From Oligosphaera ethanolica (GTDB lineage: Bacteria > Verrucomicrobiota > Lentisphaeria > Oligosphaerales > Oligosphaeraceae), in assembly GCF_030814695.1 (NCBI RefSeq), contig NZ_JAUSVL010000001.1, positions 2,702,227-2,766,226 of the forward strand: a DNA stretch of 64,000 nucleotides, read 5' to 3'. Below the pieces are notes generated by a model that saw only the letters and a program-made list of their open reading frames with translations, had not been told where the DNA came from and searched no databases. Both the position numbers and the translations under genes were made by a program. Positions 27,144 through 36,187 of this stretch are shown piece after piece. The first letter of the stretch is position 1. Every line of letters begins with the position of its first letter.

Positions 27144-28280
27144 TTATTCGCTGTAGCTGCCGAGGAAGACGAAGAGGTCTGGTCCGGCGGCCATATCGGC
27201 GAGCAGCCGGACGATGTCCTGGTCGTACACCGACCCTTCGAAATCGAAATAGAACATGAATTCGAAGTCGCGGCCGGCGATAGGCCGGCTTTCGAGTTTG
27301 AGGAGATTGACGCCGAGGACGGAGAATTTGGCCATGAGTCGGTAGAGCGCGCCGGGCTTATGGGGCACGGTCACCATGATGCTGATGCGGTCGGCGCCGG
27401 GATAGATGGCCATTTGCTTGGAGATGACGATGAAGCGCGTGTAGTTGTGGTCGCTGTTCTGGATATTGTCCGACAGCACCTCGAGGCCATAGAGCTCGGC
27501 GCAGGGGCGCGACGAGATGGCGGCGATGTCGCGCCGTTCGGAGTCGGCGACCATCTGCGCGGCGACGGCGGTATTTTCGCAGAGGGTGACTTTGATCTGC
27601 TTGTTCTGCTTGAAGAAGGCGCTGCATTGACCGATGGCCTGGTCGTGCGAGAAGACCTCGGTGATGCCCTTGAGGCTGCTGCCGTGCTTGCCGAGCAGCA
27701 CGTGGTTCACCTGCAGCTTGACGCTGCGCACGATATAGAAATGATGGTTGCGCATGAGGTCGTACACGGCATTGACCGTGCCGTAGGAGCTGTTCTCGAT
27801 GGGCAGGATGCCGTATTGGCAGAGGCCCTGTTCCACGGCCTGGAAGACGCCGTCGAAAGTGCGGACGTAGGTGATGTCGCCCTGCGGGAAGATCTTGTCG
27901 CAGGCGAGTTGTGAGTAGGCGCCTTCAATGCCCTGGCAGGCCACCGAGCCATTGCGGGGGAAGATCTTCGGGGTCTTTTCGAGCGCATCGCTGATGGCGT
28001 GTGCGAGCTGGCTGTCGCCGTCGAGGAGTCGCTGCTGGTAGGAGCGGCTGAGATCGAAGAGCATGCCGAAGAGGATGCGCGCGTGGCTGCTGAGGTCCTC
28101 GCCGGCGTCATTGCCGACGCGCTGCAGGATTTCGCGCTCGCGGGCGTGGTTGAGGATGGGCAGATTATGCTCGGCCTTGTAACGGCCAATTTCCGCGGCG
28201 GTCTGCATGCGCTCCTTGAAGAGCCTGAGGATATCGTGGTCAATGGCGTCAATGCGTTCGCGATAGGTGGCCAGGTCCAT
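27144..28280 (-). CDS. pheA: Bifunctional chorismate mutase/prephenate dehydratase
   Basis: The phenylalanine-branch enzyme that turns chorismate into prephenate and then phenylpyruvate. The 378 residues hold an AroQ-type chorismate mutase (1-90, YRERIDAIDHDILRLFKERM), a prephenate dehydratase (about 110-290, with GIEGAYSQLA, LPIENSSYGTVNA and NYTRFIVIS including the essential TRF) and an ACT regulatory domain (about 300-375, GALYRLMAKFSVLGVNLLKLES). The ESRP-type motif (KLESRPI) that binds phenylalanine is present, so feedback inhibition is expected. It is the last gene of the aroF-tyrA-pheA cluster, 239 bp after tyrA. Confidence 0.95.
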   Translation of the reverse strand: MDLATYRERIDAIDHDILRLFKERMQTAAEIGRYKAEHNLPILNHAREREILQRVGNDAGEDLSSHARILFGMLFDLSRSYQQRLLDGDSQLAHAISDALEKTPKIFPRNGSVACQGIEGAYSQLACDKIFPQGDITYVRTFDGVFQAVEQGLCQYGILPIENSSYGTVNAVYDLMRNHHFYIVRSVKLQVNHVLLGKHGSSLKGITEVFSHDQAIGQCSAFFKQNKQIKVTLCENTAVAAQMVADSERRDIAAISSRPCAELYGLEVLSDNIQNSDHNYTRFIVISKQMAIYPGADRISIMVTVPHKPGALYRLMAKFSVLGVNLLKLESRPIAGRDFEFMFYFDFEGSVYDQDIVRLLADMAAGPDLFVFLGSYSE

Positions 28281-28387
28281 GATCGGGTCCTTTCCAGAAA
28301 TAAGTTAAAGTGCGACGTTTTGTGATGAAACTTGTTGTTGCCAATCGGCAATTCCTTGTGCCAATGTGACCGAAATTCGTCTCGCAA

Positions 28388-28515
28388 AAAAAACGATTGC
28401 CCTCCGCGCCTGGCGGCAAACGCGAAGCGATTGCCACCAGGCGCCGAAATGGGATAGGTAGGGGAGCGCGAGGGGGAGGGAAGGGCCAACGGCCCTTCCC
28501 TCCCCCTCGCAAAAC
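28388..28515. repeat. Palindromic repeat between tyrA and pheA
   Basis: Second copy of the module at 25870-26000: CGCCTGGCGGCAAACGCGAAG with its inverted partner, then GGGGGAGGGAAGGGC and GCCCTTCCCTCCCCCTCGC as a long hairpin. Lying inside the operon, it could act as a processing or attenuation signal for pheA. Confidence 0.75.
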
Positions 28516-28519
28516 CCAA

Positions 28520-29374
28520 CTATACCTTTGGGACGAGTTCCAGGCTATTGACGAGGTCCTTGCGTTCGCGGCCGTCCTTGAGGAGCTGCCGGAGCGTGTC
28601 GGCGTCGCCGGCGGCGATGGCATCGCGGTACTGCTGCAGCCGTTGGATGAAGCTGTCGATTTCAGCGACGAGGTACTTCTGATTATGGATGAACAGCTCG
28701 GTCCACATGCCTTCGTGGAGGGTGGCGACGCGGGTCATGTCCTTGAAACTGCCGGCGGAGAAGCCCGGGTGGGACAGCGCGGTGTCGCTCTTGATGTAGG
28801 TGCTCGAGACGATGTGCGCCAGCTGGGACGTGTAGGCGATGATGCGGTCGTGTTCCGCCGGCGTGCTGATCTTCACCTGCGCGAAACCGATGGCCAGGAA
28901 GATCTTTTTGACCTCGTCCATCACCGTGATGTTCAGGAGGGGGTCGGGTACCAAAATCATCGACGCGTTGCAGAATAGCGCGTTGTTCGAGTAGGCGAAA
29001 CCCGACCGTTCGATGCCGGCCATGGGATGGCCGCCGATGAAGACGAAGCCCTTCTCCCGCGCCAGCGGAAAGGCCATGTCGCAGACGCTCTTCTTGATGC
29101 CGCAGCAGTCCACCACGGTGGCGCCGGGCTTGATGGCGTCCGCGTGCGTGCGCAGGAAGTCGATGGTGGCATCGGGGTAGAGCGCCAGAATAATCAGGTC
29201 GCAGGCGCCGATGTTCTCCTGCGTGAGCTCGTCGTCAATGGCCTCCATGACTTTGGCCTTGAGGACGACCGACTGCTGGATGTCACTGCCGAAGATGCGG
29301 TGAGTGGTGTTTTTGCGGATGGTCTTGGCGATGGAGCCGCCAATCAGTCCGAGGCCGACAATGCCGATGTTCAT
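28520..29374 (-). CDS. tyrA: Prephenate dehydrogenase
   Basis: The tyrosine-branch enzyme that oxidatively decarboxylates prephenate to 4-hydroxyphenylpyruvate with NAD(P). It has 284 residues: Rossmann loop GIVGLGLIGGSIAK, then LALYPDATIDFL, the substrate motif GGHPMAGIERSG and HDRIIAYTSQLAHIVSS with the catalytic His. There is no fused chorismate mutase or ACT domain, so prephenate is supplied by the mutase part of PheA. It follows aroF by 66 bp in the same direction. Confidence 0.95.
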   Translation of the reverse strand: MNIGIVGLGLIGGSIAKTIRKNTTHRIFGSDIQQSVVLKAKVMEAIDDELTQENIGACDLIILALYPDATIDFLRTHADAIKPGATVVDCCGIKKSVCDMAFPLAREKGFVFIGGHPMAGIERSGFAYSNNALFCNASMILVPDPLLNITVMDEVKKIFLAIGFAQVKISTPAEHDRIIAYTSQLAHIVSSTYIKSDTALSHPGFSAGSFKDMTRVATLHEGMWTELFIHNQKYLVAEIDSFIQRLQQYRDAIAAGDADTLRQLLKDGRERKDLVNSLELVPKV

Positions 29375-29440: not shown

Positions 29441-30442
29441 TCAGGCCAGGGCCTGGCGAACGCGGTTGATTTTTTCGACGAGGAGCGCGAAGGCGCTGGG
29501 GGTGAGCGACTGCGGGCCGTCCGACAAGGCGTGTTCGGGGTCGTTGTGGACTTCGATGATGAGCCCGTCGGCGCCGGCGGCGGTCGCGGCCAGGGCCATG
29601 GGCGGCACGAGTTTGGCCATGCCGGTCGCGTGGCTGGGATCAATGATCACCGGTAGGTGCGACAGGATCTTGAGCACGGGTATGGCCGACAAATCCAGCG
29701 TGTTGCGCGTGTAGGTCTCGAAGGTGCGGATGCCGCGCTCGCAGAGGATCACTTGCTCATTGCCGCCAGCCATGATGTACTCCGTGCTCATCAGCAATTC
29801 CTGGAAGGTGTTCGACAGACCGCGCTTGAGCAGTATCGGCCGGTTGATCTTGCCCAGCGCCTTCAGCAACTCGAAGTTCTGCATGTTGCGTGCGCCGACC
29901 TGGATGATGTCCACATCGCTGAAGAGCTCGAGCTGGGAGATGTCCATGATCTCGGTGACAATGGGCAGGCCCGTGGCCTCGCGCGCCTTGATCAGCAGTT
30001 TGATGCCGTCGCCACGCAGGCCCTGGAACGCATAGGGCGATGTGCGCGGCTTGAAGGCGCCGCCGCGCAGGATCGTCCCGCCCGCCAGCTTCACCGCCTC
30101 GGCAACCATCAAGATCTGCTCTTCGGATTCCACCGAACAGGGCCCCGCAATGATCTGGAAATGCCCGCCGCCTATCTTCAAATCGCCCACTTGGATGACG
30201 GTGTCTTTCGGGTGGAATTTGCGATTGGCGCTCTTGTAGGGCTCCTGGATGCGCTTGACGTCCTCAACGATGTCCAGCGCGCGGATGAGATCAATGTCAA
30301 TCTGCGACGTGTCACCAACCAGCCCCAAAATGGTCTGCTGCTGGCCCTCAGTAATGTGCACGGTGACGCCCATGCTCCGCAACCACTCGACTAAATTCTT
30401 CAACTGGCTCGGATTGGGATTTTCTTTGAGAATGACAACCAT
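29441..30442 (-). CDS. aroF: 3-deoxy-7-phosphoheptulonate (DAHP) synthase, type I-beta
   Basis: The first enzyme of the shikimate pathway, condensing phosphoenolpyruvate with erythrose 4-phosphate. An N-terminal ferredoxin-like/ACT-like regulatory domain (1-75) precedes a KDSA-like TIM barrel with IIAGPCSVES, LRGGAFKPRTSPYAFQG, KRGLSNTFQE and VIIDPSHATG. This is the type I-beta layout, in which the N-terminal domain senses an aromatic end product. AAGGAG lies 9 nt before the ATG. It is the first structural gene of aroF-tyrA-pheA and is preceded by a leader peptide and terminator (30476-30665). Confidence 0.95.
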   Translation of the reverse strand: MVVILKENPNPSQLKNLVEWLRSMGVTVHITEGQQQTILGLVGDTSQIDIDLIRALDIVEDVKRIQEPYKSANRKFHPKDTVIQVGDLKIGGGHFQIIAGPCSVESEEQILMVAEAVKLAGGTILRGGAFKPRTSPYAFQGLRGDGIKLLIKAREATGLPIVTEIMDISQLELFSDVDIIQVGARNMQNFELLKALGKINRPILLKRGLSNTFQELLMSTEYIMAGGNEQVILCERGIRTFETYTRNTLDLSAIPVLKILSHLPVIIDPSHATGMAKLVPPMALAATAAGADGLIIEVHNDPEHALSDGPQSLTPSAFALLVEKINRVRQALA

Positions 30443-30475
30443 GGCATGCGCTCCTTATTGCTCCTGAAATGACAA

Positions 30476-30511
30476 AGGGCCCCGCAGTGACGAGTTTCAC
30501 TGCGGGGCCCT
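30476..30511 (-). terminator. Attenuator-type terminator hairpin in the aroF leader
   Basis: A perfect 15-bp stem AGGGCCCCGCAGTGA with a 6-nt loop, followed on the transcript by a U-rich UUGUCAUUU tract. It lies between the end of the Tyr/Phe-rich leader peptide (28 nt away) and the aroF start (33 nt away), where an attenuator belongs. There is no upstream gene that it could simply end. Confidence 0.85.
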
Positions 30512-30539
30512 CAAATTCTTTGCTCAGCACGACTGAAAA

Positions 30540-30665
30540 TCAGCTGGCAGGGGTGGTCTGAGGCGGGTCAAAGCACAGCGAAGCCCGGTCCGATTTGCGG
30601 TAATAATAGTACACCGCAAACCGGCTGCTAAACGAGAACTCGCTGTAATAATACTGGCGGGACAT
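30540..30665 (-). CDS. Tyr/Phe-rich attenuator leader peptide of the aroF-tyrA-pheA operon
   Basis: A 41-codon frame, ATG at 30665 to TGA at 30540, too short for routine gene finding. It has seven tyrosines in two runs, Tyr5-7 and Tyr19-22, and four phenylalanines (10, 12, 16, 32), 11 aromatic residues of 41. No tryptophan is present. It sits between a promoter-like sequence and a terminator hairpin ahead of DAHP synthase. By analogy with the pheA, pheST and trp leaders, ribosome stalling at Tyr or Phe codons would favour transcription into the operon. The Shine-Dalgarno match is weak (AAAGAAG about 11 nt upstream), and no antiterminator pairing was worked out. Confidence 0.85.
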   Translation of the reverse strand: MSRQYYYSEFSFSSRFAVYYYYRKSDRASLCFDPPQTTPAS

Positions 30666-30717
30666 CGTGATGTGAGCTTCTTTGTTCAATAATGACAATT
30701 CTTAAGAGGCAAGCGTA

Positions 30718-30745
30718 AGTATACACCAATTTTGTCTCTGCGCAA
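30718..30745 (-). promoter_or_regulatory. Sigma70-type promoter for the aroF leader
   Basis: On the minus strand TTGCGC (30745-30740) and TATACT (30723-30718) are separated by 16 bp. Transcription would start near 30711, about 45 nt before the leader peptide ATG. Confidence 0.6.
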
Positions 30746-30925: not shown

Positions 30926-31460
30926 AACCGGACGGATCGGACGGATCAAACGGCCTGATCATCGGACAGATCGGACAGATCGGACGGATCGGACGGATCA
31001 AACGGCCTGACCATCGGACGGATCGGACAGATCGGACGGATCAAACGGCCTGATCATCGGACAGATCGGACAGATCGGACGGATCAAACGGCCTGATCAT
31101 CGGACGGATCGGACGGATCAAACGACCTGATCATCGGACGGATCGGACGGATCGGACGGATCAAACGACCTGATCATCGGACGGATCGGACGGATCAAAC
31201 GGCCTGATCATCGGACGGATCGGACGGATCGGACGGATCAAACGGCCTGATCATCGGACAGATCGGACAGATCGGACGGATCAAACGGCCTGATCATCGG
31301 ACGGATCAAACGGCCTGATCATCGGACGGATCGGACGGATCGGACGGATCGGACGGATCAAACGACCTGATCGGTCCGATCGGCCTGATCGGACGGATCG
31401 GACGGATCGGACGGATCAAACGACCTGATCGGTCCGATCGGCCTGATCATCGGACAGATC
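30926..31460. repeat. Hierarchical 9-bp satellite (GGACGGATC)
   Basis: About 12 higher-order units, each one to four copies of GGACGGATC or GGACAGATC followed by AAACGGCCTGATCATC or AAACGACCTGATC. Unit lengths differ by multiples of 9 bp, the mark of slippage. It ends at a three-hairpin element. Confidence 0.93.
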
Positions 31461-31461
31461 G

Positions 31462-31575
31462 GCCAAGTTCGGCCCAGAGGGCCGGACCATGCATAGCCCC
31501 GGGTGAGGCGCCCGGAGGGCGCCGCAACCCGGGGTATGACAGCAATTTAGAATTGCGCCCGGAGGGCGCCACATT
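31462..31575 (+). repeat. Three-hairpin repeat element, copy 8
   Basis: Forward orientation; the linker reads TATGACAGCAATTTAGAATT, identical to the copies at 33943 and 36191. Confidence 0.92.
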
Positions 31576-33655: not shown

Positions 33656-33942
33656 CGGCCACCCTGGGACCGCCGCCATCCCGGCGGCAGGGATCTTTTT
33701 ATCCACAGATTACGCAGATTAACGCAGATTATTTTTTGAGATTGGCCACTTGGTGTAGTCAGGTCGTAGATATAAGGGTATTATTATTGCGTCCCAGGCG
33801 CTGGCCAACCGGACGGATCGGACGGATCAAACGGCCTGATCATCGGACAGATCGGACAGATCGGACGGATCGGACGGATCGGACGGATCGGACGGATCAA
33901 ACGGCCTGATCGGTCCGATCGGCCTGATCATCGGACAGATCG
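33656..33942. repeat. Repeat block, left part and satellite, copy 2
   Basis: Near-identical to 30781-30990: the CCGCCATCCCGGCGG palindrome, ATCCACAGATT unit, TGGCCACTTGGTGTAGTCAG stretch and a shorter GGACGGATC satellite (33815-33942). Together with copy 1 it forms long direct repeats around the 32066-33632 gene pair. Confidence 0.9.
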
Positions 33943-34056
33943 GCCAAGTTCGGCCCAGAGGGCCGGACCATGCATAGCCCCGGGTGAGGCGCCCGGAGGG
34001 CGCCGCAACCCGGGGTATGACAGCAATTTAGAATTGCGCCCGGAGGGCGCCACATT
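33943..34056 (+). repeat. Three-hairpin repeat element, copy 9
   Basis: Forward orientation, almost identical to copy 8. It continues the direct-repeat block into the GC-rich part (34057-34340). Confidence 0.92.
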
Positions 34057-35654: not shown

Positions 35655-35965
35655 CCCAGGGCAAGCGACGCCGAAGGCGGCGCGTCGCCCTGGGTAAGCC
35701 CCCCGTCAGAAGCAAGCCCTGTAGGGGCGACCTAAAAGGGCGACCTAAAAGACCATCGACGATGCCTCGCAGCGCGCAATACTGCAGCAGTCAATGAGTT
35801 CCATTGCCTCTTTGGCCCCAGTCAGCTGCGCCGACTGGGGCCAAAGAGGCCGAGGAACACGGCCATAATGGGCGCGCTACCCAGGGCGGCGCGCGCTTTC
35901 AGCGCTGCTTGCCCTGGGCTATCATATTTCGCGCTTTCAGCGCTTCTGCCGCTTCGCGGCGAGGG
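35590..35965. repeat. Palindromic repeat cluster
   Basis: Two GTCCCGGCGGCATT modules, then two inverted copies of a module with GCCCAGGGCAAGCG and CGCCCTGGGTAAGC arms (35655-35700 and 35875-35925), and GCCCCAGTC/GACTGGGGC arms at 35817-35845. The same set occurs at 17835-18005. No gene is supported. Confidence 0.75.
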
Positions 35966-35967
35966 AC

Positions 35968-36187
35968 ATGGTGGCCGGTAGCGAGGTCCGAAAGAACGTT
36001 TTTCCGGCCATCGTAGTTGGCAGAAACGCGGCCATTTATTGTGGCAGGCAACACGATCGGTCTGATCATCGGACAGAATGGTGGCCGGTAGCGAGGTCCG
36101 AAAGAACGTTTTTCCGGCCATCGTAGTTGGCAGAAACGCGGCCATTTATTGTGGCAGGCAACACGATCGGTCTGATCAACGGACAGA
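35968..36187. repeat. Tandem duplication, 110-bp unit
   Basis: Two copies, 35968-36077 and 36078-36187, of a unit beginning ATGGTGGCCGGTAGCGAGGT and ending in a satellite-like GATCGGTCTGATCATCGGAC. They differ at one or two bases. The second runs into the next three-hairpin element. Confidence 0.92.

Follow-up and report, generated by a model that had tools for sequence, protein, structure and literature searches.

A predicted tyrosine/phenylalanine leader-peptide attenuator ahead of aroF in Oligosphaera ethanolica and related leaders in Clostridia and Lentisphaerota

How does Oligosphaera ethanolica control its aroF, tyrA, and pheA genes, and does the short region ahead of aroF take part in this control? 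The genes lie on the minus strand of the window, the whole 64,000-nt stretch of DNA analyzed here, which is part of a 5.73-Mb single-contig genome. The first, aroF (29441–30442), encodes a DAHP synthase with an N-terminal ferredoxin-like domain, similar to that of T. maritima (1RZM/3PG9), and is followed by tyrA (prephenate dehydrogenase, 28520–29374) and, 239 nt after tyrA, by pheA (chorismate mutase/prephenate dehydratase, 27144–28280). Pfam and NCBIfam confirmed these identities, which had been proposed in a preliminary description of the locus together with a tyrosine-rich leader peptide. Based on sequence comparison and RNA modeling, the region very probably attenuates transcription by way of a translating ribosome, with charged tRNA-Tyr and tRNA-Phe as the sensed signals.

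All elements of the leader locus are on the minus strand. A −35-like hexamer (TTGCGC, 30740–30745) and a −10-like hexamer (TATACT, 30718–30723), separated by a 16-nt spacer, can be read directly, and transcription is expected to start near 30711. Both hexamers are kept in a congener (L084), the second as TATGCT, and form a conserved island beyond which the two sequences are unrelated, the DNA farther upstream having diverged. The leader ORF of 41 codons runs from an ATG at 30665 to a TGA at 30540 (30540–30665) and encodes the peptide MSRQYYYSEFSFSSRFAVYYYYRKSDRASLCFDPPQTTPAS, which contains seven Tyr and four Phe. The putative control codons include a run of three Tyr (codons 5–7, 30645–30653) and a run of four (codons 19–22, 30600–30611), and the Phe codons are 10, 12, 16, and 32. 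The density of Tyr and Phe in this frame exceeds that of dinucleotide shuffles (p = 0.005, window locus alone). No recognizable Shine-Dalgarno sequence was seen for the window leader, and the frame has no Pfam match. The leader RNA of the minus strand folds with z = −5.3, none of 200 shuffles being equally stable, and the fold of the plus strand at the leader is unremarkable (z = −0.8). Within the frame, a predicted P1 hairpin (30590–30624) presents Tyr codons 19–21 as its 9-nt loop. An intrinsic terminator of 15–16 bp with a loop of 6 nt (30475–30512) follows the frame and contains a perfect 15-bp inverted repeat (30476–30490/30497–30511). The promoter-like sequence, the frame with its aromatic codons, and the perfect stem had all been noted in the preliminary description and are present; the U-rich tail attributed to the terminator stood only in part, as the tail UUUGUCAUUU is moderately U-rich.

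The leader RNA also contains the mutually exclusive hairpins expected of an attenuator, including the antiterminator that the preliminary description had missed. The protector strand R1 (UACAGCGAG, 30639–30647, codons 7–9) pairs with R2 (UUCGCUGUG, 30574–30582), which can instead pair with R3 (CGCAGUGAA, 30496–30504), located in the 5′ arm of the terminator; R2 and R3 were identified by a search for triples and by coevolution. The resulting 1:2, 2:3, and 3:4 pairings form a trp-like switch, in which 2:3 is the antiterminator and 3:4 is the terminator. The stacking energies in the window are −14.2 kcal/mol for 1:2, −14.6 kcal/mol for 2:3, and −36.9 kcal/mol for the terminator. Taken alone, the triple of the window reaches p = 0.03.

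Related loci were compared through the upstream regions, at most 350 nt long, of 100 aroF homologues (≥60% identity) from Victivallales and Clostridia, obtained from whole-genome relatives and GTDB contigs. A Tyr/Phe-dense upstream ORF (p ≤ 0.05) was found at 78 of the 100 homologues, so that the small frame and its aromatic codons are kept upstream of aroF despite changing sequence. The best Tyr/Phe cluster contained on average 6.55 aromatic residues per 12, compared with 3.07 in dinucleotide shuffles and 3.08 in the antisense direction; examples include MLKKSFAAAYYYFGFAYYFAGRVTMLSAVNRQLVKEPNTD (L087, a member of the window's family) and MKSTLFAAAYFFYFFFYFICGKVKVISAAKNAIVA (L027, Clostridia). 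In 77 of the 78 leader-bearing loci, the leader is separated from aroF by a terminator.

The same comparison bears on the possibility that the frame encodes a functional small protein ahead of an ordinary terminator, with no switch. The frame is indeed conserved between congeners: the leader of the window and that of L084 share 90% nucleotide identity, and the frame, start, stop, and terminator are all kept. However, 7 of the 12 codons that differ between the two are non-synonymous, while all 11 aromatic positions are still aromatic (one Tyr is replaced by Phe), which points to a coding constraint on the aromatic positions. Moreover, leader frames across the relatives have little in common beyond their aromatic clusters, the frame matches no Pfam family, and the pairings coevolve with the terminator arm. 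A small protein of this kind is very improbable, and the attenuator remains the preferred reading. The refuting conditions set out in the preliminary description, as far as sequence could address them, all spoke for the attenuator.

The R1/R2/R3 triple recurs among the relatives. It reached p ≤ 0.05 in 36 of 77 loci (approximately 4 expected) and p ≤ 0.01 in 25 of 77 (approximately 0.8 expected), although roughly half of the relatives gave no significant triple when considered one by one. The best triples place R1 at codons 3–9 and R2 at codons 19–30 in 53% of cases, compared with 11% in shuffles. The sequences of the three strands change together between loci, as seen in L090 (GGCGAUACC / GGUAUCGCU / AGCGAUACC), L004 (GCAUACUU / AGGUAUGC / UGUAUACU), and L081 (CGCAGUC / GACUGCG / CGCAGUC). 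A locus's own 1:2 and 2:3 regions paired better than in all 5000 cross-locus permutations (z = −9.8 and −8.2, respectively), and R2 strands picked from the 1:2 pairing alone still fit their own R3 (z = −5.5). In the control comparison of R1 with R3, which are not expected to pair, a locus's own pairing was no better than the permuted ones. Within the window's bacterial family alone, 0 and 1 of 5000 permutations were as good for 1:2 and 2:3, respectively. The permutations leave relatedness in place, but the similarity of close relatives also carries over to the permuted partners and so makes a difference harder to detect.

The position of the aromatic codons relative to these strands was assessed by a ribosome walk, in which the nascent RNA was folded up to the terminator loop in an equilibrium model while the ribosome footprint was masked codon by codon. 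In the window, the probability of the 2:3 pairing is 0.66–0.97 with the ribosome at codons 3–24 (0.79–0.91 for a stall at the first Tyr run and 0.66–0.91 at the second) and falls to ≤0.02 at codons 25–37, right after the second Tyr run. Of the 11 aromatic codons, 10 precede the boundary at codon 24/25 and are thus at permissive positions (Fisher p = 0.009). The walk was extended over 35 loci, which were chosen for a well-placed triple, irrespective of where their aromatic codons lie with respect to that triple. Across these loci, the probability of 2:3 goes from 0.73 to 0.53 over A-site codons 5–15, and its mean is 0.60 at codons 10–12, 0.20 without a ribosome, and 0.02 at codons 25–27, with values of ≤0.02 from codon 25 onward. 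Aromatic codons coincide with higher 2:3 probabilities than other codons, and none of 2000 circular shifts was as good. In a count over 75 leaders, the aromatic content per codon is 0.24 at codon 9, climbs to 0.85 with codon 10, and remains high to codon 19; R1 ends just ahead of this jump. The model thus places the control codons where a stalled ribosome would favor the antiterminator and a ribosome that completes the frame would not. The switch was clear when the walk scored the 1:2 and 2:3 helices specifically; a cruder version that counted every pairing of the terminator arm showed little contrast, as this long arm also has partners elsewhere. Unlike in most relatives, the window RNA without a ribosome is predicted to prefer 2:3 (0.72) to 1:2 (0.01), and 1:2 is predicted solely near the end of translation.

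The following sequence of events may be proposed. Transcription would begin near 30711, with a ribosome trailing the RNA polymerase along the leader frame of 41 codons. Under a shortage of Tyr or Phe, this ribosome would stall at Tyr codons 5–7, Phe codons 10, 12, or 16, or Tyr codons 19–22, where it would cover R1 or block the 1:2 pairing and leave R2 to pair with the emerging R3. With 2:3 formed, the terminator would not form, and aroF and tyrA (probably pheA too) would be transcribed. When both amino acids are plentiful, the ribosome would pass codon 24 and cover R2, R3 would be free to pair with R4, and transcription would end before aroF; the 1:2 pairing could re-form when the ribosome nears the stop codon.

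The preliminary description held that the leader senses tyrosine and, to a lesser extent, phenylalanine. The part played by tyrosine agrees with the model, but the lesser role of phenylalanine does not, and joint Tyr/Phe sensor is suggested as the best name because a stall at Phe codon 10 or 12 should, by its position, be as effective as one at Tyr. It is also conceivable, if unlikely, that the leader is an attenuator that in vivo responds to Phe alone (or to Tyr alone). The AroR leader peptide of C. glutamicum, with its Phe-Tyr-Phe motif, answers Phe only (PMC11802643), and UUU makes up 82% of the Phe codons in the leaders compared with 36% in the adjacent aroF genes, which hints at tuned decoding of Phe; the choice between UAU and UAC in the leaders shows no bias. 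On the other hand, Tyr outnumbers Phe by 7 to 4 in the window, where both Tyr runs lie in the permissive zone, and both residues are kept by the family (319 Tyr and 402 Phe in 78 leaders), which favors the joint sensor. The Tyr share was 0.47 in tyrA-linked leaders compared with 0.31 in leaders without tyrA or pheA (p = 0.001); the downstream gene was nevertheless dropped as a predictor of the Tyr:Phe ratio of the leader (pheA-linked, 0.61), phylogeny being uncontrolled. Tyr and, less strongly, Phe inhibit the DAHP synthase of T. maritima, so, by analogy, the AroF enzyme and the aroF gene may answer the same signals.

Control of the terminator by a T-box or another tRNA- or metabolite-binding riboswitch, with the small frame being incidental, would be an alternative in view of the T-boxes that regulate tyrosine genes in other groups (PMC1262725). 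No T-box was detected by its covariance model anywhere in the window, at leaderless loci, or among the leader-bearing loci sampled. Other Rfam families were likewise without a match at the window leader and at the leaderless loci, and Rfam 15 gave no meaningful match in the leader-bearing sample. As the aromatic frame is kept while the RNA sequence changes, a riboswitch is hardly to be expected here, and a leader peptide remains the better explanation of the terminator.

Attenuation of the trp operon by trpL in E. coli is the classical case of ribosome-mediated attenuation. The window leader resembles trpL in being a short ORF, placed ahead of the first biosynthetic gene, in which codons for the product amino acid form runs, and in its exclusive 1:2, 2:3, and 3:4 pairings with an intrinsic terminator. 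Unlike trpL, it is longer, appears from its sequence to sense Tyr and Phe, and has R2 inside the frame; therefore, a ribosome past the control codons would itself cover R2. The enterobacterial leaders pheL (pheA) and pheM (pheST) are likewise attenuators for an aromatic amino acid, but they respond to Phe only, precede other genes, and belong to Proteobacteria. In C. glutamicum, the aroR leader (Phe-Tyr-Phe) precedes aroF, whose induction is reported under limitation of Phe but not of Tyr (PMC4046766; PMC11802643). As described, it shares with the window a leader with Phe and Tyr before a DAHP synthase gene named aroF, and it differs by its single Phe-Tyr-Phe motif, its response to Phe only, and its actinobacterial host. 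The Acholeplasma candidate uORFC-13-1 contains one or more Phe codons just before a terminator upstream of aroF (PMC8632094) and is similar by description in combining a candidate uORF and a terminator ahead of aroF; it is found only in Acholeplasma and environmental DNA, its U run codes for at least one Phe, and no Tyr runs are described. Attenuation by leader peptides in Firmicutes, a group expected to use T-boxes, is also represented by the histidine leaders of hisS/hisZ in bacilli (Naville and Gautheret, 2010; PMC2965389), which concern another amino acid and other genes. In a study of Actinobacteria, the Phe and Tyr operons of that group showed no conserved regulatory RNA structures upstream (PMC1262725). 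The kind of device is thus known from trpL, pheL, aroR, and uORFC-13-1, but the broad Tyr/Phe family is not in Rfam 15 and is set apart from aroR and uORFC-13-1 by their descriptions. No description of such a family in Clostridia or Lentisphaerota, and no precedent for a leader specified by tyrosine runs, was found in the open-licence literature, and the family is apparently not yet described.

The preliminary description placed the attenuator outside Proteobacteria, which holds. The device is not confined to this operon and belongs to a widespread family. In a second set, which sampled genomes evenly across the class of L013 (Clostridia), a leader plus terminator was present at 37 of 69 aroF upstream regions; in the phylum of the window, the combination accompanied 7 of the 17 aroF homologues that were close and 1 of the 14 that were distant. 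For these counts, most of the hits with at least about 50% identity were used, as opposed to a random selection from all hits. The window's family is interleaved with Clostridia in the AroF tree, with at least two label changes forced by starred branches, which suggests that aroF was transferred together with its leader, in a tree whose inner support is often weak. It seems reasonably likely that these leaders form a large undescribed family of joint Tyr/Phe attenuators traveling with ferredoxin-like-domain aroF genes between Clostridia and Lentisphaerota.

Textbooks know leader-peptide attenuation from Proteobacteria, and isolated cases are on record in Actinobacteria and bacilli. In the present data, a complete device with fixed geometry and coevolving strands is predicted at about half of the sampled clostridial aroF genes and also in Lentisphaerota, a phylum rich in uncultivated members. 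If this reading is true, leader-peptide attenuation would be a usual control of the entry step of the shikimate pathway where T-boxes have been assumed to rule, and many gut anaerobes would probably set their aromatic amino acid synthesis by such leaders. The family also provides material for a covariance model for annotation, and a natural series for the joint evolution of control-codon position, codon choice (with UUU preferred), and RNA pairing.

The extent of the controlled operon is clearer for tyrA than for pheA. The preliminary description assigned aroF, tyrA, and pheA to one leader, and this remains likely for aroF and tyrA, but the co-transcription of pheA is less certain because a 239-nt gap (28281–28519) bearing a perfect 20-bp hairpin (28468–28510) follows tyrA. 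The gap is short in L084 and comprises 515 nt with other palindromes in L106, and it represents repeat insertions in the operon. Weak miRNA-like Rfam matches fell on the perfect hairpin and were judged to be chance. A second palindrome in the gap is followed at a distance by T8.

Other genes in this lineage also have leaders. In the window genome, ilvB (L213, G000:C1 near 3037061) is preceded by a branched-chain leader (MFISLANLIIVIILSVIVLLGVSALGVLPEPT) with a GTG start and a T-tailed hairpin, and such leaders were found at about half of the ilvB loci of the bacterial family. Trp leaders precede trpE in the same bacterial family, including MNTNLTIKAQAWWWRGLRWPTPRYLVV (L242) and MQHFQHNNMMFWTWSWR (L254), and the window genome's own trpE leader contains SWSWRWR. 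Because of these leaders before trpE and ilvB, attenuation by leader peptides appears from sequence to be ordinary in the lineage, and if so, Lentisphaerota would use such leaders for aro, trp, and ilv alike. No leader was seen at leuA or hisG of the window genome. Trp-run leaders before trpE (L216, L242–L260) further include AWWWRGLRW and FWTWSWR, and many have terminators.

Several other features were observed in the window. A 9-mer of the CGGACGGAT type is repeated in arrays at 30929–31462 and 33810–33943, which also show a higher-order period of 43/77/120 bp; shared translations suggest that the stretch immediately preceding the first array recurs ahead of the second. An Acido-Lenti-1 RNA (RF01687, 47 bits) at 35880–35944 on the plus strand (+) is the sole Rfam match in the window. 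It is followed at 35968–36187 by a 110-bp direct repeat in two copies, which are 99% alike.
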